Source: Narthecium ossifragum
Taxonomy: Eukaryota; Streptophyta; Magnoliopsida; Dioscoreales; Nartheciaceae
DNA: 64,000 nucleotides
Direction of reading: 5' to 3'
NCBI GenBank assembly: GCA_963920575.1
Contig: OY986970.1
Coordinates: forward strand, 2,881,654 to 2,945,653
Part shown: positions 2,947-53,439 of the stretch, in pieces
How the letters are laid out: each line of letters starts with the position of its first letter
Position numbering within the stretch: position 1 is the first letter of the stretch
The notes under the pieces: model-generated
The model's input: only the letters and a program-made list of their open reading frames with translations
What the model was told of the DNA's origin: nothing
Database searches by the model: none
Position numbers and translations under genes: made by a program

Positions 2947-5900
2947 ATGGAGGTCTCCACACATTCGAGCACACCCCGTGGGACGAGCCCAAGCGTCCGG
3001 GTCGACGTCGAGGACGAGGAAGTCATGCACCGGTACTGGGCGGCGTTTGAGAAGCTCCCCACTCACAACCGCCTTCGCACCGCCGTCCTAAGGTCGGCTG
3101 TGGAGGGTGCCGAAGGTGACGAGAGCCAGTACGAGCACAAGGAGGTCGATGTGCGGATGCTCGAGCTCTGTGACCGCCAAGAGTTCATTGAGAGGATCCT
3201 TAAGGTTCCTGAGAAGGACAACAAACTCTTTCTCCAGAAGCTACGCACCCGGTTCCACAGGTCAGTTTGTGTGCATAATATATATTTCCTCTTCTGAAAA
3301 TATTCTTGTGTTCTAATTAATTTCTTTAATGATGTGATGTTATTATTATTATTATTATTTCCCTAGAGTTGGAATTGAATTTCCGACCGTGGAAGTCAGA
3401 TTTGAGCATCTAACAGTTAAAGCCGAGTGTCACACTGGTAGAAGGGCTCTACCTAGTATCATGAACAAAGGTAGAGACATTGTTGAGTCTGCCGTAGGCC
3501 TGATAGGAAGAAGGTTTTCAAAGATGACTACGCTGACCATTCTCAAGGATATTTCCGGAATTATAAAGCCTTCACGGTTTGTCTCCTAATTAATTGTTGC
3601 AACTACGTACATTAATGTTATATATCAGAGCTCTGCAAAATTATTTCGCTACATGAAGATTAATTGATGCATATCTTTCCATTTTTTTCTCCCAGAATGA
3701 CGCTTTTATTAGGCCCACCATCTTCCGGAAAAACAACACTTTTACTGGCTTTGGCTGGAAAGCTGGATCCGAGAATGAAGGCAAAGACTTCGACAACATG
3801 CATGCCCATTCAATACAGTACTGTAGACTTTTATATATGCAGCCAATTAATTAAAATGTTCTCAAGCACTCATCCAATTATTTCCATAAACAATTGTAGG
3901 TAGAAGGAGATGTGACGTATAATGGTTATAAGCTGAGCGAATTCGTACCTCAGAAGACAGCAGGATATGTTAGCCAAAATGATGTGCACGCTGGAGGGAT
4001 GACTGTTAGAGAAACTCTCGACTTCTCCGCAAGATGTCAAGGCGCAGGGCATAGCTATGGTAAAGTTTATATATTTCAACATTAATATCAAAACAACTAT
4101 TTCAAAACATAAGCAGCTGTTGACTATATTCAAGCAAGGGGAAATTAATTATATGCAGGTATTTTATCTGAACTGGAGAGAAGGGAAAGAGATGCAGGAA
4201 TAATTCCAGAAACTGACGTTGATCTGTTCATGAAGGTACACGTATATTGTGATAAAAGAAATCCGAGTAATCGATCGTCACATTCTGGCTACTTGTAGTT
4301 TTCATTTGTCCACTAATAATAGTTGGCGTTAATATATTCAGGCTACTGCAGTGGAAGGGGTCAAAGGCAATCTCCAGACAGATTACACCCTCAGAGTACT
4401 GATCACCACAACATTCATGCAGCAGCTTCGTTCGCATTATAATTGTTTCTATGCGGCATGACTTATGATGGTCTATGTTGCAGATACTTGGGTTGGACAA
4501 TTGCGCTGACACGATGGTTGGGGAGGAGATGAGGAGAGGGATATCGGGTGGGCAGAAGAAACGAGTCACCACAGGTTAAAGGAGAATATTAATTAATAAT
4601 ACTAATTAATGTCTAGTTCTTTCTTCAAATTAAGAGTTGTACGTATTATATCTGGTGTTCTTATATTTGTCTCTATGAATTCGGTCACAAATGCAGGCGA
4701 GATGATGGTCGGCCCCAACAAGATCCTATTCATGGATGAGATATCGACTGGACTAGATAGCTCCACCGCCTTCCAGATTGTGAAGTGCCTCCAGCAGATG
4801 GTTCATCTCAGGGAGGCAACTTTCGTAACATCTCTCCTCCAGCCTGCTCCAGAGATTTTCGAACTCTTTGATGACATAATTCTACTGTCCGAAGGCCAGA
4901 TAGTATACCAAGGCCCGCGAGAGCATGTTCTTGATTTCTTTGAAAGCTGCGGCTTCCGCTGTCCTGAAAGGAAAGGGACTGCTGACTTCTTGCAAGAGGT
5001 AATTCTATCATTTTTCTTATCGAGTTCTTCTTCTTTTGTTTTTTTTTTTTGTTTTTCTTTTTGTTTAGACTTAGTTAAACCCTAAGGTGCATTATTCATC
5101 CAGGAATCGGAATGAGAATTCCTTAAAACAAAGAATTCAACATGTTTGGTTGCAGAATCCATTTAGAAACCAGAATTGAAGTTCCTACGTTTGAGGGAAT
5201 TTTGGATTCCCGAATTTGATAGGGGAATTCAGAGTCCCCTCAAACGCAAGAGCCCTCATATTCATGAAATGTACATGAATATCCTTTATCTTTGTTTGAT
5301 TAAACTGATCAAACGGCAAGGATCAATCTTAAAAATAATCTTATTTCTTTCTCTTATTTATTAATAGTCTTATTTCTTTCTCTTATTTATTAATAATATT
5401 TCAAATAATCTTATTTATTTCTCTTATTTATTAATAATATTTCAAATAATCTTATTTATTTCTCTTATTTATTAATAATATTTCAAATAATCTTATTTAT
5501 TTCTCTTATTTATTAATAATATTTCAAATAATCTTATTTTCTTCTCTTATTTATTAATAATATTTCAAATAATCTTATTTTTTTCTCTTATTTATTAATA
5601 ATATTTCAAATAATCTTATTTTTTTTCTCTTATTTATTAATAATATTTCAAATAATATTAATAATATTATTTCTCTCTTATTTATTAATAATATTTCAAA
5701 TAATATTAATAATCTTATTTCTTTCTCTTATTTATTAATAATATTATGAACTCTCATATTAATAATATTATTTCTTTATCTTATTTATTAATAATATTTC
5801 AAATAATAACATTATTTCTTTCTCTCATTATTAATAATCTTTGATCCAAATAAACCAAGGTAATACAAATACATATACATACATAAATATATTCATAAAT

Positions 5901-15519: not shown

Positions 15520-17008
15520 CATCAACTTTGTGCAAGTAAGGAAAAATCCCATCTATGAGTCCAGACTTAACTGCTGCTGGTGCAACTCTGACATTAATGC
15601 TATAAATCATGCTGTAGTATTTGCCATTCACCTCCTTGTACTCACTTTTGCAACTAGGAGCAACGAGCAGCTGGTTCAAGAGTTTAGCAGGCCATCCCTT
15701 AAGTCGTCCGATCTCTTCTTTCCGACACAATATGCCCAATCGACAATGGGGCAATTCAAACTCTGCCTCTGGAAGCAGTGGTGGACCTATTGGAGGAGCC
15801 CTGACTATAACTTTGAGAGGTTTTCCTTAACTCTGGCCACTGCTTTACTAGTTGGAACCGTCTTTTGGGGAGTAGCCACCAGGAGGTACGTACTTTACAA
15901 TGACCCTCCCACCTACTATTGCTTGATGTCCTAATTCATAATCTCCTCTTATGTGGTGTGTTGTAAATCGTATGCATGCAGAGAGAGTTCTTTGGATCTT
16001 AGGATCATATTAGGTGCCATGTATGCAGCAGTGATATTTTTGGGCGTCAGCAACTGCTCTACAGTGCAACCAGTTGTCGCTGTGGAGAGGACCGTGTTCT
16101 ATAGGGAGAGGGGTGCTGGGATGTACTCTGCTTTACCTTACGCCATTGCTCAGGTATGTGACTAAGTCGATACTTACAGGAGTTTTAAGTAAGAAAAGAT
16201 GATCACTCTCCTATTGTTCTATCTATTTTCTTCTCCATAATTTGATGCCAATGGTTTAAAGCCTTTTTATTATTATTAGTTAAGCCAGAATGGCTAGGGA
16301 TGAAAGAGAGGAAATGGTTTAAAGCCTTAGCGATGCTTATTGCTCACTTTTATGCAGGTTGTCGTGGAAATACCATATGTCAACGTACTATACATTGATC
16401 GTATACACATTCATCGGTTTCCAGGGGACACTCGTAAAGTTCTCATGGTTCTTCTTTATTTCCTTCATCACGTTCCTATACTTCACCTACTACGGGATGA
16501 TGGCTGTGGCAATATCACCAAACCATCAAGTGGCTGCAGTCTTTGCTGCAACCTTCTATCTATACTTCGACCTCTTTTCGGGATTCTACATCTCCCTACC
16601 AGTGAGTACCTGCTCTTCATTAGCGACTTCTACCTCTCTTAGAATTGCAGTTGGTAGCGTCCTGGTGATGCAAAACTATAGAGAATCAATCTCAGAAGCT
16701 TCTATGTTTTAGGCACTTGATGGCTTTCTTGATTGCAGAATATTCCCGTGTACTGGGTGTGGTACTACTGGATTTGTCCGGTGGCCTGGACAGTATATGG
16801 GCTAATTGTGACGCAGTATGGGGACATGGAGGATGTGATCAAGGTGCCCGGTCTGCCCGACCAGCCAATTAAGCTGTACGTCAAGGAGCAACTGGGGTAT
16901 CATCCAGACTTCATGGGTGCTGTGGCTGCTGTTCTAGTTGGTTTCCCCATCTTCTTTGCGTTCACATTTGCTGCTTGCGTCAAGAAGCTAAATTTCCAAC
17001 AAAGATAG
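15520..17008 (+). pseudogene. 3' fragment of a third PDR/ABCG gene (exons 19 tail to 23)
   Basis: Homologous to the last exons of genes A and B: the exon 19 end (about 15520-15533, with donor GTAAGG), exon 20 at 15658-15885, exon 21 at 15982-16153, exon 22 at 16358-16601 and exon 23 at 16739-17008 with a TAG stop. Exons 20, 21 and 23 have exactly the same lengths as in A and B (228, 172 and 270 nt). Exon 22 is 244 nt rather than 255: 11 bases are missing just after codons for EIPYV, which shifts the frame inside TMD2. Everything 5' of exon 19 has been replaced by a Copia LTR. It is more diverged from A and B than they are from each other, so it is an older member of the cluster. Confidence 0.93.
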
Positions 17009-19446: not shown

Positions 19447-19615
19447 TAATAAGTCACAAAATATACATAATTCACCCATTCAACTGGGCTTTGTTAGCTC
19501 TCAAGCAATGCATTTTTAATATCTTTTCATATGGTTTCAGGTACAAGAGCTTACAAAGAAAGTTGCATTGATTTCGAGCCAAAAAAACATCAATTATACA
19601 GATTCAGCCTTATTT

Positions 19616-20098
19616 GGATCGATCCAGACAATTTGGATCGATCCAGGGATTTTTGGATCGATCCCAAAGTGATTCGGATCGATCCAGACCCTTTTCCAGA
19701 GAGCCAGACTTTCTGTCACATATTGGATCGATCCGAATCCTTAATGGATCGATCCAAATATCTTTCTCTAGAGAGCTTAGTACAAATTGGATCGATCCAG
19801 ATCTGTAATGGATCGATCCATATTCCTTTTCGAGAGAGCTATGATTCTCTGGTACATATTGGATCGATCCAGATCTGTAATGGATCGATCCCTATTTCTT
19901 TTTCAGAGAGCCATGATTCTCTGGTACATAATGGATCGATCCAAATTGTTATTGGATCGATCCATAGACCCTTTCCAGAGAACTATGATTTTCTGCTACA
20001 TCTTGGATCGATCCAGACCCATTTTGGATCGATCCAAGTTGTTAGAAACCCAGATTCTGACATCTTGGATCCATCCAAACTTATTTCAGATCGATCCA
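19616..20098. promoter_or_regulatory. Array of palindrome GGATCGATCC in the 5' LTR
   Basis: By eye I count 14 exact copies and two near copies (GGATCCATCC, AGATCGATCC) in 483 bp. Many come in pairs about 24 bp apart, with pairs about 70 bp apart and joined by AGAGAGC-type linkers. The array ends about 60 bp before the TATA box, in the U3 enhancer position. Function unknown; protein-binding sites are an inference. Confidence 0.8.
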
Positions 20099-20161
20099 AG
20101 GTCGCCTGACGGGTAAAAATGGACGGTTCTGATCTGATCCGTGGATCCACGACTTAGAGCC

Positions 20162-20169
20162 TATAAATA
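20162..20169 (+). promoter_or_regulatory. LTR TATA box
   Basis: TATAAATA in GCCTATAAATAGAGGC. The right LTR has TATAAAAT at 31261-31268, with one extra A. A CT-rich stretch follows at 20198-20240, as in plant LTR transcription start regions. Confidence 0.75.
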
Positions 20170-21227
20170 GAGGCTTTGACTCTGATTTGAGGATCTTTTC
20201 TCCCCTCTTTTTCCCTCCTTTCTCCAGCCTTCTCCCCCCTTAGAGTGAGAGAGAGATTGAGTGCTTCAAGGGTTGGATTTTGATGGAGAAGATGGGTAAA
20301 GCTTCCTCTTCCATGGAGATCCTACCTAAGATGAGTAGCTAAATCCCTCCTCCTTGGGAATTTCATGATGTATTAGGGCTTTCTCTTTTGATTCTTGATG
20401 TAATGACTCTTGAGAGATGGTTTTTGTATGAATTCTCATGTAACTCTATATTTTTTTAATGAATTCCATTGTTGAATGGTTTGATTACCTCTTTTCATAT
20501 GGAAGTGCTTGAGAATAACATGATGCTTACTAGATGTTTGGTTTAATTCCTCAAAGAAGAGGCTATGTTAGAACCATAGCCAATTCTAGGGAATGAATCC
20601 TTGATCTAGGGATAGGATCTTGAGGTGCTAGAACCACCCCAAGCCAAATCTATCCTATTTACTATTATTGATTTAGATGAGGGATGGGATTGAGATATTA
20701 AACCCATCTCAATCCAAGACCTTATCCATACAAAGCCTTGATCCTTTGCCAACGATTTGACCTTAGTCCGGCGATCGTTGAGCCATGATCGAATTAGAGC
20801 CTCGATCATGGATCTTTACCTTATTATGCATGCGATGAGATGATCCTAACCCGACATCTCATTAGCAGTGAGCGATGCTAATCCTACGCTCGTCGATATC
20901 CAATTTAGATGATCTCTTGAGTGTCATGCATCTTGATTCATAGAGATAATATTTAAACCCTAATTCGGATTGGAATTCCCTAGGAATTCTTCCTTGATAA
21001 ATTTCCTCTTTAGTTCTTCTAGAATACTTTCGTTAGAAAACTTAACGAATCAACCATATTGTTTACAACTAGCGTAGAGATTATATCACATTTACTAATT
21101 CAATCATCAATTCCTTGAGGACTCGACCCGTGCTTCCACTAACTACATTGTAGTTAACTATTAGTCCGGTAAATAGTTTTGTCCGCCTTTGATATACTTA
21201 ACGACATATTTCAAGGTGAGTCGAAAA

Positions 21228-30584: not shown

Positions 30585-32294
30585 TGATAAGTCACAAAAT
30601 ATACATAATTCACCCATTCAACTGGGCTTTGTTAGCTCTCAAGCAATGCATTTTTAATATCTTTTCATATGATTTCAGGTACAAGAGCTTACAAAGAGAG
30701 TTGCATTGATTTCGAGCCAAAAAGACATCAATTATACAGATTCAGCCTTATTTGGATCGATTCCAAAGTGATTCGGATCGATCCAGACCCTTTTCCAAAG
30801 AGCCAGACTTTCTGTCACATATTGGATCGATCCGAATCCTTAATGGATCGATCCAAATATCTTTCTCTAGAGAGCTTGGTACAAATTGGATCGATCCAGA
30901 TCTGTAATGGATCGATCCATATTCCTTTTCCAGAGAGCTATGATTCTCTGGTACATATTGGATCGATCCAGATCTGTAATGGATCGATCCCTATTTCTTT
31001 TCCAGAGAGCCATGATTCTCTGGTACATAATGGATCGATCCAAATTGTTATTGGATCGATCCATAGACCCTTTCCAGAGAACTATGATTTTCTGCTACAT
31101 CTTGGATCGATCCAGACCCATTTTGGATCGATCCAAGTTGTTAGAAACCCAGATTCTGACATCTTGGATCCATCCAAACTTATTTCAGATCGATCCAAGG
31201 TCGCCTGACGGGTAAAAATGGACGGTTCTGATCTGATCCGTGGATCCACGACTTAGAGCCTATAAAATAGAGGCTTTGGCTCTGATTTGAGGATCTTTTC
31301 TCCCCTCTTTTTCCCTCCTTTCTCCAGCCTTCTCCCCCCTTAGAGTGAGAGAGAGATTGAGTGCTTCAAGGGTTGGATTTTGATGGAGAACATGGGTAAA
31401 GCTTCCTCTTCCATGGAGATCCTACCTAAGATGAGTAGCTAAATCCCTCCTCCTTGGGAATTTCATGATGTATTAGGGCTTTCTCTTTTGATTCTTGATG
31501 TAATGACTCTTGAGAGATGGTTTTTGTATGAATTCTCATGTAACTCTATATTTTTTTAATGAATTCCATTGTTAAATGGTTTGATTACCTCTTTTCATAT
31601 GGAAGTGCTTGAGAATAAGATGATGCTTACTAGATGTTTGGTTTAATTCCTCAAAGAAGTGGCTATGCTAGAACCATAGCCAATTTTAGGGAATGAATCC
31701 TTGATCTAGGGATAGGATCTTGAGGTGCTAGAACCACCCCAAGCCAAATCTATCATATTTACTATTCTTGATTTAGATGAGGGATGGGATTGAGATATTA
31801 AACCCATCTCAATCCAAGACCTTATCCATACAAAGCCTTGATCCTTTGCCAATGATTTGACCTTAGTCCGGCGATCGTTGAGCCATGATCGAATTAGAGC
31901 CTCGATGATGGATCTTTACCTTGTTATGCATGCGATGAGATGATCCTAACCCGACATCTCATTAGCGGTGAGCGATACTAATCCTACGCTCGCCGATATC
32001 CAATTTAGATGATCTCTTGAGTGTCATGCATCTTGATTCATAGAGATAATATTTAAACCTTAATTCAGATTGGAATTCCCTAGGAATTCTTCCTTGATAA
32101 ATTTCCTCTTTAGTTCTTCTAGAATACTTTCGTTAGAAAACTCAACGAATCAACCATATTGTTTACAACTAGTGTAGAGATTATATCACATTTACTAATT
32201 CAATCATCAATTCCTTGAGAACTCGACCCGTGCTTCCACTAACTACATTGTAGTTAACTATTAGTCCGGTAAATAGTTTTGTCCGCCTTTGATA
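30585..32294 (+). repeat. 3' LTR of the Athila-like element, truncated at its right end
   Basis: Begins TGATAAGTCAC. Near-identical to the 5' LTR; a GGATCGATCC array lies at 30754-31196 (11 exact copies) and the TATA box at 31261. It stops at TTTGATA (32294), some 33 bp short, where it joins the reversed PBS (GATACCAAT) of the Copia element. Confidence 0.85.
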
Positions 32295-40510: not shown

Positions 40511-41629
40511 TCCCTTCTTGAAGGAGAAAAAGCAACATAAGAATATATGAGGGGGGATGAGCACAAAAACATAACAACAATCGAATGAGATAAAGACTCA
40601 TGGATGGGATGGCTTCCTCGAAGAGATCCCGGCGAAAGACGCCTCACGGAACCGTAAGTTGGATGGATCCCTGTACGTACGCCTTGGGTCGGAGATCACG
40701 CCTCGCCCCGACCCCTTGCCCTTACCCTCGCCTCGCCCCTCGCCCCTCGCCCCACCCTTCGCCCGTCGCCCGTCGCCCCACCCTTCGCCCCTCGCCCTCA
40801 CTTTTGGCATTGAGGGGATAAGAATGAGTGTGAATACTGAATAGGATCTGTTTTAGGGATTGTGCGGGAGGGGTTGCGCGGGACCTTGAAAATTTTTGGA
40901 GGAAAGATACGAATTTTTCAAAAGGGAGTATAGCTGAATAATTTTGAGTCTAATTTAGGGTTTAATCTAGCGGAAAATTGGTGTTTAGTCTCTTTTGGAG
41001 ACTTCATTTGCTGTATAGTCCCTTTGAGAATTGGTAAGGCCTTTAGTCTCTTTTTAGTGTTGTTAGTGTTGTTATGGAATCTTTGTATGACCAGAATAAC
41101 CTTGCTATTAGTCACGGCGGAATTTCCTCATTAATTGCTACTGATAGCGTTTTTATCATTCCCGGGATTACGGGTATCGTGAAATTAGCTATGGACGTTT
41201 CGTCTTCCTCAGTTAGATGGGCGTTGGAGTTATTGGTCGTCGGCGTGGATTCATTGGGTATTTTTTCTCTTTTGGCGTTTTCGGCTGAAGCCTGCGTCGC
41301 GGTTGGTATTATTTGGTCGGGAATTTTGGTTCCATGGTTTTTGAGGGAGCGGTCATCAGGTGCGGAAGAGCCATTTTGTTTTGAAGGAGGTTTAGGGAGT
41401 TGCCGTCGTCTCTACAAGTGGTATATTTCTTGCGTGGAGGTGGAGGGAGTCGCCTTCTTGGTGCTTCATCAGGTATGTTGCGATGACTTTATTTTTTGTT
41501 TTTTTCATGTGTATTTGGATGGATGTTTGTTTACAGTGGTAGTGCACCCATTCGCTGGTAATACTGGTAGTTACTTCGTTGTTAATTAGGTTATTGATAG
41601 GTTATTTTCCGTAATCTGTTATTATCATC

Positions 41630-42545
41630 TAAAGTGGGAAGTATCTACCAAACTAAAGGGGGAAGTAACTACCAATCTACAGTTCGCGAGTAACTACCAA
41701 TGGGAAGTGGGAAGTAACTAAAGGGGGAATTGAAATTGTATGGAAGTAACTAGCGATCTAAAGTGGGGAAGTAACTACCAGTCTAAAGTGGGAAGGAACT
41801 TCCAATCTAAATTGGGAAGTTACTAATGTGTGAAGTAACTAAATGGGGAGTAACTACCAGTTTAGAGTGGGAAGTAACTACCAATCTGCAGTGGGAAGTA
41901 ACTTCCAATCCGAAGTGGGTAGTAACTAAAGTGGGAACTAAGTAGCTGGGGAGTAACTACCAGTCTAAAGTGGGAAGTAACTACCAATCTGAGGTCGGAA
42001 GTAACTTCCAATCGAAGGTGGGATTATCATCTAAAGTAGGAAGTATCTACCAAACTAAAGTGGGAAGTAACTACCAGCTTAGAGTGGGAAGTAACTACCA
42101 ATCTGAAGTGGGAAGTAACTTCCAATCTGAAGTGGGTAGTAACTAAAGTGGGAAGTAAGTAGATGGGGAGTAACTACCAGTATAAAGTGGGAAGTAACTA
42201 CCAATATGAGGTGGGAACTAACTTCCAATCGAAGGTGGGATTATCATATAAAGTGGGAAGTATCTACCAAACTAAAGGAGGAAGTAACTACCAATATACA
42301 GGGGGAGTAACTACCAATGGTAAGTGGGAAGTGACTACCAGTCTAAAGTGGGAAGTAACTACCAATCTAAAGTGGGAAGTAAGTTCCAATTTAAATTGGA
42401 AGAATGTAACACTTTCAGCTGGTAGCTATATTGGTAGTTACTCTGCATTTATAGATGGTAGTCACTTCCACTTAATTAGGAAGTATCTACCAAGTATAAG
42501 GAGACATAAACTACCTCTTGTAATGGGAAGTAACGACTAATTTCA
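41630..42545. repeat. Motif array 1 (GGGAAGTAACTACCA), 5' of the transposase gene
   Basis: Roughly 35 or more copies and variants in 0.9 kb, spaced about 20-30 bp apart and separated by short linkers such as ATCTAAAGT. Common variants are GAAGTAACTTCCA and GAAGTATCTACCA. Orientation is uniform. It occupies the whole leader between the left end and the first transposase exon. Confidence 0.92.
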
Positions 42546-42588
42546 GTCCGAAGTAACTACTAAATGTCCATTTTGTGCAGGGTTAATA

Positions 42589-45268
42589 ATGGGTGAAAGA
42601 TTGATGCTGATGTTCAGATATGCAAATGAGACTATAGTTCGTGGTATTGAAAGTGCACAATCTTACCAATGTGCTGTTGGAATGGTATGCAGTAAGTGGC
42701 CAGAGTTGTGTGAAGATAGTATGTGTTTATCTTATTCCATACCTGAATACCCAAAGTGTATGCTTGAATCTGAGGTTGATTATGAAAGCATGGTTTCAAT
42801 TGCAAAATCATTAGACATCCAGCGTTTAGGTGTAAATGTTTGGAGCAATGCTGAGACCATAAAGGGGTAGCTTGATGATGCTTTGTCATGCACAGATTCA
42901 CATCATAGTGTAGATGATGATGATTTGCTTCCATCATTTTGTCAGCATTCGAAGAAGGAATTGAAATCATTTGGATGGGAGAATGCTATTAATGATGTTG
43001 GGCAGAAATTTGTAGGTGGTGCTATAGAATTCGGCTATGTGTTCAGAAGCTAGTAGTAGAGTCTGGATATGATTATGAGTACGTACGTGAAGAATACTGA
43101 CAAGGTTGTTTCTGTGGAATGCTCGCAGAAACTCTTGACTGGTTGTGAGTGGTTTGTCAAAGGTCGCCGGCAGCGTATTAATGGCTTCTTTTATGTTAAG
43201 GTGTTTAACAAAGTGCATACATGCGGATCGGGATGTCTATCTGTGAGACATAGACGGATGAATTCAGATCTTGTGGCCTGTTTGATAGATGATCAGGTGC
43301 GAATAAAGCCTACCCTTCATCTTATAGATGTTAAACACTCAATTCATTCCGACTATGGAGTGATAATTTCATATGATACTGCATGGAAAGGTGTCGAAAA
43401 GGTGAGAAAGGATGTTCTAGGTGATGACGAAAGTTCATTTGAGTTGTTAAAATTGTATGCTCGTGATGTAGTCGACGCAAATCCAGGGTCTCATTTCATT
43501 GTGGAGGTCAACGAAGAAAATGGTTGTTTTAAGAGGTTGTTTGTAGCCATGAATGGGTGTATTGAAGGTTTTAATTTCTGTCGTCCATTGCTTTGTTTAG
43601 ATGGCACCCACCTCAAGGGCAAATATAAGGGTCAGCTATTGGCGGCCACTGGGAAAGACGGCAATGAAGGTTAGATATTCGCAAGACCTAAGTTCTTAAG
43701 CTCTTGCTTTTTATCTTGTGGTTTCTATTTGATTGACATACTTATATAATTGTTCCTATCCGATATGATTGTTTGCAGGTTTGTTCCATCTTGCTTTTGC
43801 AATTGTTGATTCGGAGAACGAGGAAAACTGGTCATGGTTCCTTGTTAATCTTAAAGCGATTATCCGTACCGATCGTATTATCACTTTCATATCGGATAGG
43901 AACTTCGGTCTTGTCAATTCGGTGCCAGAAATTTTTCCAACTTGTTATCATGCTTTTTGCCTTTTTCACTTGAAGCAAAATTTGAGGAGTTGTTTTAGTG
44001 GGAGACATTTCCATGGAGATTTTAAGGAGACAATGGTTAATAGATTTTCTGCTTGTGCTTACGCTCCTACTGTTGATCTATTTGATCTGAAAGTTCAAGA
44101 ATTTTTGGATGAGGGAAAGAATATCGTGGAAAAATTCATGCAGAACTTGCCACCTGAGAGATATGCTAATGCCTATTTTAAGGTAACACTATCTGTTATG
44201 TCAGTTGATGGTAGTTACTTCCCATTTATCGTGTATTGGTAGTTACTTCCCTTTTATGGTGTTAGTTTTCCCATCATTTATTGGTAGTTACTTCCCCAGT
44301 TAATGGTAGTTACTTCTCTATTTGTACTGGTTCTTACTTGCACAATTGTTGGATGTTACATTTTAGTTAATGTGGTAGTTACTAACAGTTTACTGGTAGG
44401 TACTTCAGCCAGTGATTATGGTAGTTACTTTACATTATACTGTTTAGTCACTTTCCATTCATTCTGGTACTTACTTCGTAGTATAATTGGTAGTTACTTT
44501 GCCAATTTTTCCCATGGAAATAGATATGGGTTGATGTGCTCAAATGCAGCAGAATCATTCAACTCGTGGATTCTTGAAGAAAGGAACCTACCTATCACAA
44601 AATTGGTTGATAGGATTAGACTGATGCAGCAGATAGCAAGTAAGTACAATTGTTGAAATTGAGATTTGCAATTCATTGTCTCGTTTTAAATTTTATTTTG
44701 CATTCTAGAAGTAGTTTCAAATATATTACGTAACAATCAGTTTCTTAATGCAGATAGGAGTGAGGATTGCAAGAAATTCAGGTCGCAAATATGTCCTGTT
44801 ATCGAGCGTAAGATCAAAGTAGCATTTGATGAAGGGAGGTCTTGGTTTGTTTGCAACTCGACTCGGACGCTGTTTGAGGTTTACTCTGTGCCATCGGTTT
44901 CTGTTGATATTGCCAATAGGACTTGCTCATGCTGTCAGTGGCAGATTAATGGTATACCTTGCTCGCATGAGATGGCTTGCATAATGACGACAAGGAAAGA
45001 ACTAACCTCCTTTGTGGATCATTATTTCCATACGCCATTTTATTGTAAGAGTTACTCTTTTCCACTTTATCCGGTTCCAACGATGGGCAAGACATATCAT
45101 GCTACTAGTGATGAAGTTGTTTTGCCGCCTTTATCTCGGAGGTCCCCTGGAAGGCCCAAGAAGAAGAGGATCAAGTCCATTGGAGAATATGTTAGAAGCA
45201 TTGTATGTGGTCGGTGTGGCCGTGAGGGTCATCATAATAGGAAGTCATGCATGGAACCCCTTAAATAG
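42589..45268 (+). pseudogene. MULE transposase (MuDR domain, DDE core, SWIM finger, zinc knuckle)
   Basis: A cut-and-paste transposase. Blocks: N-terminal part 42589-42867; a MuDR-type domain (43069-43300, LLTGCEWFVKGRRQR); the catalytic core with LCLDGTHLKGKYKG, then after an intron (43670-43778) FISDRN, and AESFNSW for the D, D and E residues; a SWIM finger (TCSCCQWQINGIPCSH, about 44916-44970); a basic GRPKKKR patch; and a CX2CX4HX4C knuckle (CGRCGREGHHNRKSC) before the stop at 45268. Other splice sites: 44183 donor, 44640 donor, 44753 acceptor. An in-frame TAG at 42868 and three consecutive TAGs at 43051-43059 break the 5' part unless an unseen intron removes them. The acceptor before 44515 is unclear because the motif array runs into it. 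Confidence 0.85.
44195..44515. repeat. Motif array 2 (TGGTAGTTACTTCC), inside a transposase intron
   Basis: About ten copies of the reverse complement of the array 1 motif fill the intron between the second and third core exons and reach the next exon. Confidence 0.88.
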
Positions 45269-45394
45269 TCGTTTGTTGTCATCCAGTAATGTGTCTTATT
45301 CTTCAGCAACTGTTCAGTAAAAGCCATATTGTAATAATTAACTTTCGTTATTTACTTAACTAAGTTACATTGCAGTTAAATGGGAGGCAATTTT

Positions 45395-46320
45395 GGAAGT
45401 CATTGGTAGTTACTTCTTCACCTGTTGGTAGTTATTTCTCCATGTATTGATAGTTACTTCCTGTTGATAATGGTAGTTACTTCCCCATGTGTTGGTAGTT
45501 ACTTCTCCACCTAATGGTACTTAAGATGGTAGTTACTACACCCATGTGTTCCTGCTCAATCTAATGGTAGTTACTTCCTCAATCTGATGGTAGTTACTTC
45601 CACAATCTTATGGTAGTTACTTCTCCCAATCTAATGCTGGTTATTCCCTAAATCTTATGATAGTCTCTTCCTGAATCTATTGGTAGATACTTCTTCAATG
45701 GAATGGTAGTTACTTCGTCAGTAAACTGGCAATTACTACCTCATTTATACTGTTACTTAAAAAGGTAGTTACTTCCTTCATAATGGTAGTTACTTCCGCA
45801 TGTGTTGGTAGTTACTTCTCAACCTTTTGGTAGTTACTTCCTCAATCTATTGGTAGTTACTTCTTCAATGGGATGGTAGTTACTTCGTCAGTAAAATGGC
45901 AGTTACTACCTCATTTATACTGTTGCTTAAAAAGATAGTTACTTCCTTCATAATGGTAGTCACTTCCCCATGTGTTGGTAGTTACTTCTCAACCTTTTGG
46001 TAGTTACTTCCTCAATCTATTGGTAGTTACTTCTTCAATGGGATGGTAGTTACTTCGTCAGTAAAATGGCAGTTACTACCTCATTTATACTGTTGCTTAA
46101 AAAGGTAGTTACTTCCTTCATAATGGTAGTCACTTCCCCATGTGTTGGTAGTTACTTCTCAACCTTTTTTGGTGATTACTTCCCCACTAATATTGGTAAC
46201 TAACTACGAAAACATTGGAATGTAAGTACCAGTATAAAAGCGTGGAAATAAACATTTGGGCTACATGCAAATAATACAGGTAGTAACTACCACAATATTG
46301 GTAGTTACTTCCGATTTAAT
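45395..46320. repeat. Motif array 3 (TGGTAGTTACTTCC), between the convergent genes
   Basis: About 35 copies in the same orientation as array 2. Part of it is a higher-order tandem repeat of roughly 180 bp (segments starting near 45770 and 45950 share TTCCTTCATAATGGTAGT and TTCTCAACCTTTTGGTAG), so the array grew by duplication of blocks as well as of single motifs. Orientation becomes mixed after 46190. Confidence 0.92.
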
Positions 46321-47449
46321 CCCAATGTTACAACACAATTTAATGGAACTAACTTCCTCATTCAACGTGCTGACAATAATTTCAATGTGTACATTTGTAT
46401 GTATAAAGTCATGTATTACATCGATTGATGTAGATAGAATATGTTTAACTGTACATTCTTGGGCGGCAACAAGGAATCATGTCTTTGGCAAATATGTATC
46501 CACCAGTCTAAAGTCTGAAAGGCACATGTTTTATATGTGCATTAGTAATTTGTCGATAAGCTGCCCCTTGAATTCATTGATTCCTTCCTCTGTAATATTC
46601 CTTGGATGTCGATGATGAAGTGCTATCTCACGCATGAAGTAACACGCATAAATCGAGCAGTCATTCCTGTGACATGTTTTTTGGGTCACAATTTAGATTT
46701 GAATTGTTTTCAACATGAAATATTAAATAATGTTTGAAATTTTCCAAATAGACAATTGGTGAAGTGTGTCTTACGAGTCTGGGGCTTGTTGGGGAGTATT
46801 TTGATAGCTGACAATTGCCTTTTTGGATGCTTGAGTTGGAAGTATTTCATCTTCTATTAAATCCTTCTGTGATGAAATGAAGTGAAAATGTTAGACATCA
46901 TTTCCAGTCAGGTAATAAAGCATTACCATTTGCTTTGCATTCTTAAAACAAGGGATTATAAAGCATAGTCAGCTCATAAAGCATTTGATAGAGATCATAA
47001 AGCATTACCATTTGCTTGGCATCCTTAAGAAATGCGTCTTTCCTGCCTCTACCCCTAGGCCTCATTGAGTTGTAGAAATTCCATTTCTCATCCTCAATGT
47101 TGTACACCAATAGTGTCCAATGGAAAGGTGTTTTGTCTTCTGTCTTGTAGCCCGTTGAGAGTATTGGGAAGAAAACATGCTTCTTTCCTTTCTTAATTGC
47201 TTGCACATATTTGTCAAAAGTTTTGACAGCAATGTCCTCATTGTAATCAAGGACTAGCATGCTCTGTGTATGAAAGATAATAACATAGTAAGCTATGAGA
47301 AAAATTCAATGATTTAAGTGTGGATATGATTTACCTAACAATATCCTTCAATGAAGCAAGAATTTCCATCAAATTCAGGATCCATAGTCAATGCCCTTGT
47401 ATACGCATCGACAACCTATTCAATGAATTGCAGTTAATTGAAATTAACT

Positions 47450-47925
47450 ACCAATTATCTACGGAATTAAGTGCCATTGAACAGGGAAGTAACTATGACT
47501 TACGTGCCCCAGTAAAGGTTTTGGTATGTTGGTGAAGTAACTACTAATAATATGCAAAATAACTAACTACTCTTCACAATTTATATGGGAAGTATCTGTC
47601 ATACAGTATAAATTGAGAAGTTACTACCATTCTAAAGGGGGAAGTAACTACCACTTTAAATTGAGAAGTTACTACCATTCTAAAAGGGGAAGTAACTACC
47701 AATATAAAGTGAGAAGTAACTTCCACTTTAGATTGGGAAGTTACTACCAGTCTAAAGTGCCAAGTTACTACCAGTATAAAGTGGAAAGTTACTACCAGTT
47801 TAAATTGAGAAGTTACTACCACCCTATACCTGGAAGTTACTACCAGGTGAAAGTGTTAAATTTGTAGAATCTAACACTTTTAGCTGGGAAGCAACTGCTG
47901 TTTATTTTTGGGGGAAGTAACTACG
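47450..47925. repeat. Motif array 4 (GAAGTAACTACCA), intron of the Ulp1-type gene
   Basis: About 16 copies, again in the array 1 orientation on the plus strand; many read GAAGTTACTACCA. Confidence 0.88.
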
Positions 47926-49184
47926 AACATGATGTATACAGTAATTAAATACTTAACTCAGTTACATACCTGCACTGATATGTACTGGTTTTTCATCATA
48001 GAAATTATCATCTCGACGTCTATCCATGTGAATGGATCATTCGCGTCCCTCCAAATAGGTGTACTTCATTCAAATACAGGTAATAGTAAATGTCATGTCA
48101 GAGATGAATTGCTTGAATTTTGATAGTAGGAAATATAATGGATATGAAATAATTGGTAAGTAATTTACTGCAATCCTTCCTCTGCAAGCAATGTCTTCAT
48201 TCTATTGAAGGCCTCATCACTTATGTACTTGCCGCATCTGTACTTTTGTTTGTTTTGGAGTTTTGTAAGTTCTTCAGGTGCAGCTGGCACTTCAATATCT
48301 TCATTCTCTGAATCCAATAAGTGGAAATTTGGCATTGCAAGTTCCGATATCACCTTCTTTACTCTTTTTACTTCTTCAGGTGTACTGTATTTGTAATCAT
48401 CATTCATTGCTGGTTTTCTCTTCTTCTCCTTTATATCTCGCACCATTGAACTTTGATATTGAATGATCTCGAGGCCATGTGCAATTTTTTCCATTTGGTT
48501 TTTCTGGGTAATCTCATGCACTTCAGCTTCCTCAAGGATCTCTTGATGCCTTTCCAATTGATGATCTATTTTAGCCTTCAGTTCTGCAATCTCTCTCTGC
48601 ATCACTTCTTTCTCCTCTGTTAGTTTTCTATTTTGCAGATTGGTCAATGATAACCTGTCATTGAGATCATTGCCCTTTGTCTTCTGCCTTGTAATGTCAT
48701 TTTCCATTTGTTTAATCTTATTGTTTGCATCTTCGAGCTTTTTTACTAAATCTGAGCTGTCAACAGAGAGTGGCACCTCTGATGCTGCCTCCATGCTGGC
48801 TTCATTTCAAGCTCCAGCTTTGCATTGGACACGAGCAATTCATTAATGTGAACTTTTAATTCCGCATTAACCTGTTGCATAGTTCTGTTCTGTTCTTGAA
48901 TTGCATCGTTGTCCTTTTTTAAATCTTCACTGTACAAAAGGAGGCCATCCCTCTCAGCTGTGGTAGCACGTAGGAGCACCAACTCTTTATTCAGCTCTGC
49001 ATTAGCTGCTTCCAGCTCAATGACATTTTGTTTTGCTGATCCCAAATCTCCATTTGAAGATAATAGTTCCCTCTCTAGGGAGGCAATTTTCGACTGCAAC
49101 TCGTTGATCATATTTTCTGTTGGCTGATCTTCATTAATGGCAATCTTCAATGAAAATAAAAGAGCTTCCTTTATATGGAAATGA

Positions 49185-49345
49185 ACTACCAAAAGTATGG
49201 ACAGTAACTACCAAATATGATGGAACGTAACTACCAGTTCTAATCAAAAGTAACTATTAATTTCGTACTACCATAGTAGGAAGTAACTACCAGTTATAAT
49301 AGGAAGTAACCACCATAGTGACTACGACGTCACTACTAGTTTAAC
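49185..49345. repeat. Motif array 5, intron of the Ulp1-type gene
   Basis: Seven or so degenerate copies (CAGTAACTACCA, GAAGTAACTACCA) in a short intron. Confidence 0.8.
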
Positions 49346-50719
49346 TAGAAAGTTATGTCCACCATATAATTTATAAGCTACCATTCTTTAACTATGTACC
49401 TTGGTGGAGTTGTTGTTATTGTCTCCAACGTCCATGTCAGTTTCTTCCAACTCAACCTGCATTTTAAATACGATTGGATAACATTTTAAAGATGATTTTC
49501 AATTTGATTTTGAGCATAAAATTCCAAGGAAGGTATACCCATACATTTTGATTCTCTGATTGTGTATGACTATTGCTTTCTCCATTGCTATGGTGACATT
49601 GTTCTTCAGTACCTTTCTCTTCACTGTGATAACCTTCATCGATGGGATTGCTTTCTCCATTGCTATGGTCACATTGTTCTTCAGTACCTTCCTCTTCATC
49701 GGAGTTCACATCCAAAAATGAAGATGCATAGGTTTTTATCTCATTGAGTGTAGGACATAATTTTGTTGTCTTCACCTTCTCATCATCCATTTCAGATAGG
49801 TCATAGGTTATCAGGTTCTTGCCGTTATTATGTATGGACCACTTTACACATCGTGGTATCATGTTTTCCTTTTGATCTTGTGTCACAACAGTTGTATGTT
49901 CGCAAAACCAGTACTGCACAAAAAAAGCAAATATGATGTTTCAGATTATGTCTAATGTAGCTAATTTTGGGAATTGAGTAAAATTTGAAATCAAGCATTT
50001 CAAGTAGATAAACTTACTGGCTACAACACTGTACAGCCAGTAACCCTTGCAGGGTTTTTATGATGTTTGTCAAGTGAATCAATGAGAGTTTTTAAAATTT
50101 CACTTGACCAATCATAGGTCTTCATGTTGTCTAAATCATCCACATAGTTGATATAAGCCCGTGTCACTTTTCTTCCACTGCTACAGAAAAATATGGACTC
50201 CATGATGTATATAGTGAGCAGTTTAATGCTATCAAGAACATCTGTATCACTGCCCTTTGGGAATGTGCTCACTATTTTCTCCTTCAAAGTAGCCATTGTA
50301 ATAACCTTTACATTCCGGAAAATTTTGTCCAGTAACATTGTCTTCTTCTGGTTGGTGCTGGACTTATTGACATCCAATTTCTGCGAGCCATGATCAAGCC
50401 CAAAAATATGCTTCACATCTGAGCTTCTAATCTGGCAGTATTGATGCCCTAATTTGAATGCCTTCTTGATGTAGTCATATTGTTTGATCAATAAGACTAT
50501 ATCATTGTCACGTTTCCGTGCATTCTTCTCTGTCAGTTTTCCTTTGTACACTGCGTCAATCAAGGTGTAAAATGGAGTTTTCGACAACAATTCCCAGTGT
50601 AGATCAGTGAATGAATCTTTTATGAATGCCATTATTGTAATGAGTGCAGTTACAATTGATCTATACTGGATAAGGTTAACTTTTTTCCTGCATCAATAAT
50701 GGAAGGGAATTAAAATAAC

Positions 50720-51865
50720 TGTGAACATGGGAAGAATTACTAACATTTAAAATGGCAAGTGTCTAAGAAGCAATTATAATGGGAAGTAGCTACAGATTAA
50801 AGAAGGAAGTCAGTTCCAAATAACAAGGAAGTAACTACAAATTATATTGCGAAGTAACTACAGTTACTAACTACCAATTTACGACAATAGGTAAGGGAAG
50901 TAACCACCAATTAGAACTTTAGTTCATCCCAGTTATCATCTGCCAAGTAAGGGAAGTAAGTACCAATTATAATCTGCGAAGTCACTACAATTAAATTAGG
51001 TAAGTAACTACCATTAGAGTAGGGAAGTAACTATCAATTTAGATTGTAGTTAGTTCCAGTTATGATCTGCGAAGTAAGGGAAGTAACTACCAATTATAAG
51101 CTGCGAAGTAACTACAATTAAATTAGGGAAGTAACTACCAATAATGTATGGGAGTAACTACCGATTGTCATCTGCGAAGTAACTACCAATAAATAGGCAA
51201 CTAAATACCACTTAAATTTGTAAGAAATTACCATCTCAAAAGTATTTCCAAAGTAGTGGGAGAGTAACTACCAGGATATGAAGTAACCACCAAGGGATTA
51301 TCCACCAAGGGATTGTTGGCAAGTAACTACCAAAGAATTGAAAGTAGGGAGTGACTACATTAAAGTCCGATAAGAAAACCTAGATAAAAAACCCTAAATT
51401 CGCAAACAATAAATATAGTACAATAATCGGGAAGTAAGTACGAATGAATTGGAAGTGGGAAGTAACTACCAGGATATGAAGTAACCACCAAGTGAAGTGA
51501 ACCCAAGGGAATTTGGGAAGTAACTACCAATGAATTGAAACTACAAAGCAACCATTAAATCGTCGGATAAGAAACCCTAGATAAAAAACACTACATTAAG
51601 TAGAGTACAAAAATCGGGAAGTAACTTCCAATGAGTTGGAAGTGGAAAGTAACTACCATGGTATGAAGTAACCACTAAGTGAAGTGAATCCAATGGATTT
51701 TGGGAAGTAACTATCAATGAATTGAAACTAGGAAGCAACCATTAAATCGTCCGATAAAAAACCCTAGATTAAAAACCCTAATTCGCAAACAATAAGTAGA
51801 GTACAATAATCGGGAAGTAACTTCCAATTAGTTGAGAGTGGGAAGTAACTACCAAATATAGTCCG
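50720..51865. repeat. Motif array 6 (GGGAAGTAACTACCA), 5' of the Ulp1-type gene
   Basis: About 35 copies in the array 1 orientation, interleaved with a longer repeat of about 190 bp (segments near 51365, 51545 and 51745 share AACCCTAGATAAAAAACC and TTCGCAAACAATAA). It fills the leader between the gene start and the right end zone. Confidence 0.9.
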
Positions 51866-52436
51866 ATAATAACCCCTAGAAACGGCAGCCATAACCCTAG
51901 ATTAGCAAATAATAAATCTTGTACAATAACCACAATGCTTCTACTGGAAATCTCCATTTGTTGTTGCATTTCAAAAAAAGAGGAGGAAAAATGATAAAAA
52001 TGATAAAAAACCGTACCCTTTCACCATTTTTAATGTTTTTTTGCGACTGGAGGCCGACGGTAGGACCTTCTGCGATGGGAGCCGGACGGTAGGATCTTCC
52101 ACGCCGCCGATAAGAAGGTCTATCGGAATCTTTAGGCTTTACTAGTCGGACGACGGCGGCGGAATACGCGGGACGCCGGAAATGGTGGGTAGATAGAAAG
52201 GCTCGTGCGCGTTGGAAATGGGAGGGATGGGCTTTTATTGGGAATCAATTTCGAATTTTCGGAAATGACGGAACGGGCGGCCTGCGTGGCTGTATTTACG
52301 AGAATGAGAATGAATAGGGGTATTGTAGTCTTATGTTGCTATTGTGGGTACTAAAACACTTAAGGACTGTTACAGGGGACTAAATCACAAGAAGAGGTCA
52401 CTTAAAAGACTAAACAACATATCCCCCTTAATCTAG

Positions 52437-53439
52437 ATATATGAGAACCAAATGTTAGGAAAAAGAACATGTCAGATTGGAAATTTGGACTCCTATCCGG
52501 CCATCATAGCCGAGTAGTTTTGAGCCTAATTTTTTAAATAGATCAAATTGATTTACATGTCCTAGCAAAAGGATTATTTTAACTGCAATTAGACTTAATC
52601 TAGATATATGAGAACCAGATGCATGTTAGGAGCATTTTGATTCATATTGGGTTTTGGGTTTGGTCTAACAGTTGAGTTGGATTAATCCAAATAATATAAA
52701 AACGGAGAACTTTGACGCTAATTTGATTTAGTCTATGCATCGTAGGTCAAATAGTAACTTGACTCATTTTAAGCTTAGTATATACATCTTCGAGGAATAA
52801 ACAATTTGACAGTGTAGACCTTATACTAAAATGAGCAGTTTGAGTCATATATATGGGTTTTATTTTAGACATTCATTACAAAACAAGTAGTTTGAGTCAA
52901 ACGAGACTTGATCTACACCTATTAGAAAAAGATAGGTGCGAACGCAAAAATAGGCTCTAATATAAATTATTAAATTAGACTCGACGAAGCTCCAAAGCTT
53001 GATCAGGAAGCTTGGCTTGGAGGCTCACGAATCAAACATAGAGCAGGCTCACAAATCAAACATAGAGCTTCATAAACCCATAGCCGAGTCGAGCTCGAGC
53101 TCCATCTTCATGCTCGAATCAAGCTCCACCTCGAATTGAGCGTAAAATATGCTTTAATATGAGCCGGCTCGAACAAACAAGAGTTTAACTCGACTTGGCT
53201 CGAATACAATCTTAATTCACACCACTAACACGAAAATCCTAAGCATCTTGAAAAATAGTTGATCTCTAGAAAAAAGCTAAAGAAATGCATTAACAATATC
53301 TCGGTGCCGCCTTCTGGTAAATAAAAAAAATTAAGTTGTTTTGAAATATCTTATTTTTCAGCAGTTTATAGTTTCTTGAGGATGCAAGTATAAGTGGTCA
53401 TAACTTAAGGAGATTTTTGTCATCCTATATTAAACTTAT
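52437..53439. other. Outer CACTA interior right of the MULE, no gene recognised
   Basis: AT-rich. Contains a second copy of the MULE insertion target with its flank (TTAATCTAGATATATGAGAA at 52428 and again near 52592), so the target lay in a local repeat. No coding feature seen. Confidence 0.5.

Follow-up and report, generated by a model that had tools for sequence, protein, structure and literature searches.

Motif arrays paired with DUF1985 proteins in a Mutator-like transposon family: a probable case of VANC-type, motif-guided anti-silencing

A 64-kb stretch of genomic DNA (the window, meaning the whole stretch that was analysed) contains an 11457-bp Mutator-like element (MULE) at positions 40971-52427, whose non-coding parts are filled with arrays of one short motif, GGGAAGTAACTACCA. 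Judged by its sequence, the element is a Mutator-like transposon with two convergent genes, one for a transposase and the other VANC-like and marked by a DUF1985 exon; the genome has about a dozen close copies, this one among them. From the placement of the motif in this element, and from the way in which motifs and DUF1985 proteins vary together across the genome, we conclude that the family probably practises VANC-type, motif-guided anti-silencing, in which a VANC-like protein would read the amplified motif of its own subfamily and lift silencing. By analogy with Arabidopsis, the VANC-like protein would bind its own subfamily's motif, dense arrays of which would mark long non-coding stretches; the bound DUF1985 protein would remove DNA methylation and silencing in cis and from related copies, short ones included; and motif and protein would change together, so that each subfamily would mainly address itself.

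Within the window the motif belongs to the element. Exact copies number 19 (15 on the + strand and 4 on the - strand); at two mismatches or fewer all 95 window copies lie inside 40971-52427, and at three or fewer 122 of 123 do, the lone outsider being at 15867. When the element was shuffled ten times with an order-1 Markov model, nine of the shuffled sequences had no copy and the other had one. The coding segments (4617 bp, set from open frames and approximate in their limits) hold 1 of the 122 copies and none of the 95, and the remaining 6842 bp of the element hold 17.7 copies per kb. A sequence-only reading made before this analysis had estimated by eye well over 100 copies in six arrays, seen nowhere else in the window and filling leaders, introns and intergenic space with the exons spared; the counts agree with that description, and the 122 copies fall into six arrays that can be delimited. 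The first (41565-42562, + strand, 32 copies: 29 + and 3 -) occupies the leader of the transposase gene; the second (44209-44502, - strand, 9 copies) lies between transposase exons, as placed by frames and Pfam matches; the third (45404-46313, - strand, 33 copies: 30 - and 3 +) separates the two convergent genes; the fourth (47439-47926, + strand, 16 copies: 15 + and 1 -) and the fifth (49177-49315, + strand, 5 copies) lie between frames of the VANC-like gene; and the sixth (50781-51854, + strand, 27 copies: 26 + and 1 -) stands 5' of the DUF1985 exon, in the first intron or leader of that gene. The motif is also abundant in the genome at large, where the exact 15-mer occurs 1224 + 1435 times and its reversed control 2 + 3 times; five host-gene loci (L089-L093) have no copy, and all 13 loci with a close DUF1985 exon carry arrays. 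Two findings that would have spoken against the sequence-only interpretation, a motif just as frequent in unrelated DNA and a motif missing from the rest of the family, were thus not made.

The motif of this subfamily (class A) is 15 bp long and nearly palindromic, with a 13-bp core, GGAAGTAACTACC, both strands of which read nearly alike because its halves are reverse complements except for one pair and the centre. Such arrays could be neutral minisatellites, in which slippage amplified an arbitrary unit in unselected non-coding DNA and which no protein reads. Their tandem structure fits that explanation, as like-oriented copies are most often spaced 22-24 bp apart and larger blocks have been copied too (for example, 170-bp units), and so do the differences in array size between copies of the element and the presence of other arrays in a long terminal repeat (LTR) retrotransposon of the same window. 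We nevertheless consider it very unlikely, for it does not account for a single core common to separate arrays of one element, for the use of both orientations, or for the conservation of the core: 13 of its 15 positions are 85-98% one letter, against 40-64% at adjoining positions, although the core figure is inflated because copies were chosen by their likeness to the core. Nor does it account for what is seen across the subfamilies.

In 50 loci the sequence 5' of the DUF1985 exon was read over 1.5-2 kb, and 49 of them (representing all subfamilies) had an array in this same place, with one dominant 10-mer present in 7-38 copies in 1.5 kb; L037 is the exception. As a control, 5 of 34 window stretches outside the element reach 7 copies of one 10-mer (three in the LTR retrotransposon, one in an AT-rich array and one other). 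At two family loci, L037 and L068, GATCGATCC words are the commonest, and the LTR retrotransposon may be inserted there. As expected of paired proteins and motifs, other DUF1985 subfamilies carry other words. Class A (GGGAAGTAACTACCA) goes with exons 90-100% identical to the window's, class A2 (TGGAAAGTAACTACCA) with exons 59-67% identical, class B (TGGAAAGTAACTGGT) with 50-52%, class C (TATCCACTATCCAC) with 39-41%, classes D (AAAAGAGAATACTGA) and D2 (AGAGAAAAGAGAA) with 35-39%, class E (AAAGATGAAAATGA) with 34-37%, and class F (TCATTTTTATCANTGATAAAAATGA, a 25-bp palindrome that itself speaks against minisatellites of arbitrary sequence) with 31-32%. These words, about eight classes whose labels rest on thresholds chosen after the table was seen, form four unrelated groups: A/A2/B, which have AGTAACT in common; C; D/D2, which have a stretch in common; and E/F, which overlap over much of their stretch, class E words being partly counted in class F loci. 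The near-palindromic core of class A and the palindrome of class F suggest binding by a dimer.

In the stretch 5' of the DUF1985 exon, at two mismatches or fewer, class A copies occur in none of the 9 class B loci and class B copies in none of the 13 class A loci, and the DUF1985 exons themselves hold at most two copies of any class word. Across the whole genome the class B word has 473+487 exact matches and its reversed control 2+1, the class D word has 117+115 and its control 1+1, and class F has 257 palindromic sites genome-wide versus none for its control. A kinship of class D with the motif of Arabidopsis VANC21 was considered and rejected: the two have CAGTATT in common, yet 25 of 1000 shuffles gave a stretch as long, which is not significant over 16 comparisons.

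The classes also follow the protein tree. On a DUF1985 tree of 45 loci (L070-L074, 5 of the 50, are omitted, as only the start of their exon was covered), the class labels need 8 changes, the minimum, against a mean of 28.4 for shuffled labels, and none of 200 shuffles needed as few. The weight of this test lies in the well-supported branches, because near-copies alone make clustering easy; bootstrap support is 100 for the branch that sets off each of A, B, C, D2 and F.

A motif that follows the tree could have another reader. The arrays might be binding sites at which the transposase acts in transposition, with no part in anti-silencing. Subterminal repeats serve as transposase binding sites in other DNA transposons; the two genes are linked, so that the motif would follow either tree; and in the short relative L008 the arrays sit between both ends. 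On the other side, four of the arrays in the window copy (44209-44502, 45404-46313, 47439-47926 and 49177-49315) lie in introns and in the element's central part, far from its ends, and the end stretches shared with L008 are free of the motif, the arrays running from 41565 to 51854; we therefore hold this explanation to be unlikely. Alternatively, the arrays might serve RNA or host factors, with repeats and inverted copies as sources of small RNAs, or with the arrays as enhancer or splicing elements that host proteins recognise. Tandem repeats can yield small RNAs, according to one report (PMC10398659), and both orientations occur within one element; but the change of word in step with the DUF1985 subfamilies would be left unexplained, and we regard this as highly improbable.

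Several observations weigh against VANC-type anti-silencing as the function of the arrays. Binding of the motif and demethylation by an element protein are putative, and, because the genes are linked, the reader might be either the DUF1985 protein or the transposase. The window copy is damaged: its transposase has in-frame stops before 43060, and the reading frame of its VANC-like gene is broken within the coiled-coil part. Searched against a protein database, the DUF1985 exon gave 183 candidates, none at E <= 0.001. The pairing of words and proteins is also imperfect. All 9 class B loci (L028-L036) carry 2-5 class A copies 3' of the exon at two mismatches or fewer, which may be mixed addresses or an older motif awaiting replacement; class A and A2 words overlap, so that exclusiveness is incomplete; and A2 (3 changes) and D (2 changes) are not single clades. 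The tree shuffles show clustering only, some of which near-copies produce. Two class A clusters, L001 and L005, resemble arrays and have no end match among the matches listed; possibly they represent an unrelated element carrying the class A motif. Finally, the LTR retrotransposon mentioned above has arrays of its own, of the palindrome GGATCGATCC, and short-motif arrays may therefore arise without a DUF1985 gene.

That retrotransposon was read from two direct repeats, 19449-21194 and 30587-32294, which are 96% identical and flank gag-like frames; 36 clustered copies of GGATCGATCC are distributed over the repeats and the interior. DUF1985 was not seen in it, in analyses that included no search aimed at DUF1985 there. 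Elsewhere in the window, an AT-rich tandem array of 41-bp units lies at 5334-5842.

The limits of the element are well defined. A 9-bp target site duplication, TTAATCTAG, abuts both sides as identical direct repeats (40962-40970 on the left, 52428-52436 on the right; a third copy at 52595 is a chance occurrence), so the ends proposed from sequence alone, 40971 and 52427, proved exact. Both ends recur elsewhere in the same genome. The left terminal sequence (40971-41058, + strand) and the right (52350-52427, - strand), both approximate in their limits, are degenerate inverted repeats of each other: their local alignment scores 50, against a maximum of 37 in 500 shuffles, with many mismatches and gaps. 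The identification as a MULE, likewise made in the sequence-only reading, is upheld by the transposase domain (PF10551, E 1.8e-11, a match that passes the curated cut-off) together with the duplication at both ends, and the element further has the marks of the VANDAL type in its degenerate terminal inverted repeats and the DUF1985 gene beside the transposase. The transposase gene (42541-45268, + strand) has MULE pieces in frames 43060-43674 and 43769-44242 and a SWIM zinc finger (E 4e-7) in 44690-45268.

The VANC-like gene (46771-50692, - strand; exon limits are predicted) includes the DUF1985 exon, 50021-50692, in which the domain match spans 50078-50374 (PF09331, E 7.8e-7; 29.6 bits, below the curated cut-off of 35.1). 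In an alignment of this exon from related loci, 21 of 22 members match DUF1985 at E <= 0.01. A profile search of the PDB with that alignment gave a best E of 0.56, and an AlphaFold2 model of the window's exon alone, mostly helical, had a mean predicted local distance difference test score (pLDDT) of 52.9, too low for a search by fold. Seven of the 22 also match the plant mobile domain (PMD in Pfam) at E <= 0.01, the best of them at 2.4e-7, which points to a possible link between VANC proteins and the PMD proteins MAIN and MAIL1. Two overlapping coiled-coil frames follow on the - strand at 48165-49207.

The sequence-only reading had noted an Ulp1-type gene carried with the element, and an Ulp1-derived stretch is indeed present on the - strand within 46943-47305, with a probable last exon ending near 46771; the match to Peptidase_C48 itself (47048-47191, - strand, PF02902) is weak alone, at E 0.043, and the DUF1985 exon comes as an addition to what had been noted. 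Asn, in FYNSM, stands at the position that we take to be that of the catalytic Asp in all three sequences compared, namely the window, L021 of class A and L033 of class B; the presumed His of the catalytic triad is kept in the window and in L033 and is Tyr in L021 (with predicted exon limits), and the Cys region was not identified in these three sequences. The final residues of the last frame are QQAPDS-stop in the window and QQSPDS-stop in L033. A working Ulp1 protease is doubtful because Asn replaces Asp and the frame ends in QQxPDS-stop, and the piece seems to be a retained protease fold that lacks enzymatic activity.

The protein is conserved within subfamilies. In five groups comprising 25 loci (A, B, A2, D+D2 and F), within-group comparison gives a ratio of nonsynonymous to synonymous differences (pN/pS) of 0.24-0.31 for the DUF1985 exon, which is under purifying selection; a value of 0.82 for class C was discarded because its exons were out of register. 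Among the 13 close loci, the array 5' of the exon varies between 23 and 38 copies in 1.5 kb, and hence conservation of the protein goes together with turnover of the arrays.

The family is large and includes long and short members. The search of the 379.4-Mb genome scored 150 of 505 candidate DUF1985 matches, 150 of 953 for MULE and 150 of 166 for Ulp1 frames. Thirteen DUF1985 matches, the window's included, are 90-100% identical, and 11 of these are free of internal stops; an opposite-strand MULE match, in the convergent order seen in the window, lies within 15 kb of 80 of the 125 DUF1985 matches examined. Forty left ends (of 296 candidates) and 40 right ends (of 123) were scored, and 26 of the scored left ends pair with a scored right end, over spans of 11.3-11.9 kb (nine), 25.7 kb (one), 4.2-9.5 kb (eight) and 1.2-2.0 kb (eight). 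Two elements of 4.2 and 4.4 kb retain the DUF1985 exon without a paired MULE match. The short relative L008 (about 1.3 kb) keeps both ends, with the first 85 bp and about the last 230 bp in common with the ends of the window's element, and 28 motif copies; it matches arrays and, among the matches listed, no coding exon beyond the edge of the leader. The clusters L001 and L005 lie on G000:C1 near 0.43 and 2.10 Mb, and the motif steps in L001 are about 95 bp. Three class B clusters, each about 1.5-3 kb long, switch from the - strand to the + strand (G000:C1:33564241-33567119, C2:5540671-5543001 and C2:7607021-7608550), with no DUF1985 match there among those examined; perhaps these mirrored clusters are non-autonomous elements.

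Taken at its widest, the pattern could represent a radiation, within a single non-eudicot genome, of anti-silencing systems that address themselves, with about eight classes in at least four groups, each with its own DUF1985 protein, with some motifs being long palindromes read by dimers, and with DUF1985, as a relative of the plant mobile domain, being a general, re-programmable reader of short DNA words older than the eudicots; this is a tentative proposal that may well fail in full. Sasaki 2022 is said to describe about ten such systems in Arabidopsis and to place their origin in eudicots. The host is not a grass: rice was rejected because rice GBSSI matches the best gene at 49-76% identity per exon piece. 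Potato GBSSI comes no clearly nearer, and Piper was set aside because the chalcone synthase entry 6cqb, from kava, ranks 11th for the chalcone synthase of this genome. A search that gave no TIR domain at E <= 0.001 and a GC3 of 0.89 in one chalcone synthase exon would fit a non-grass monocot; GBSSI exons, with a GC3 of 0.30-0.58, do not strengthen this, some eudicots likewise lack TIR-type resistance genes, and the host may belong to another lineage. If the host is a non-grass monocot, which is unproven, such systems exist outside eudicots and that reported origin would move back, with a bearing on the age of counter-defence against silencing. If the proposal holds, one genome would supply several natural protein-motif pairs, a starting point for learning how DUF1985 chooses its words; the DUF1985 code for DNA words could be worked out from such pairs, and sequence-directed demethylation tools would perhaps follow. 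A literature search over titles and the starts of abstracts, a corpus in which subscription papers are mostly uncovered, found no report of such motifs in a monocot, a weak negative. By word counts, Sasaki 2023 has rice only in the reference list and names neither monocots nor eudicots (PMC10398659).

Several known systems resemble this one. MULEs of the KIU/Kaonashi type, known from Arabidopsis, melon, rice and grapevine, carry an Ulp1 domain, the capture of which a review places at the monocot-eudicot split, a date that would suit a eudicot host or an earlier capture here; motif recognition is stated in the review for Vandals that carry KIU, and none is stated for the elements of rice and melon (PMC13317346). 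The element described here resembles them in its Ulp1-derived piece, which lies in the VANC-like gene and departs from a working protease in FYNSM and the QQxPDS-stop end. The PMD proteins MAIN and MAIL1, in whose mutants many of the down-regulated genes have a common promoter motif, are domesticated host proteins needed for silencing, whereas the VANC-like protein would be the element's own anti-silencing factor (PMC7156037). The nearest counterparts are the VANDAL elements of Arabidopsis (Hosaka 2017, PMC5735166), on whose VANC proteins DUF1985 is one of two domains marked. In VANDAL21, the introns and the intergenic and terminal non-coding parts carry YAGTATTAY arrays, to which VANC21 binds. 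The present element agrees with VANDAL21 in being a MULE with degenerate inverted ends, a transposase and a DUF1985 gene, in having a family-specific short motif in tandem in the same kinds of non-coding parts with the exons spared, and in combining a conserved protein with array turnover. It differs in its motif (13-15 bp and nearly palindromic, against 9 bp), in its Ulp1-derived piece and in its two convergent genes, read from open frames alone. VANC6 goes with other words, AGTTGTCC/AGTTGTAC, which are also present in the unrelated Arabidopsis element AT9TSD1, and the divergence of protein and motif between VANDAL21 and VANDAL6 is of the same kind as that among the subfamilies described here, which have other motifs again: a single genome holds four unrelated word groups, and one of these includes a 25-bp palindrome. 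The principle would thus be that of the Arabidopsis VANC systems, with new motifs, a long palindrome among them, and a host range that possibly extends beyond the one known.

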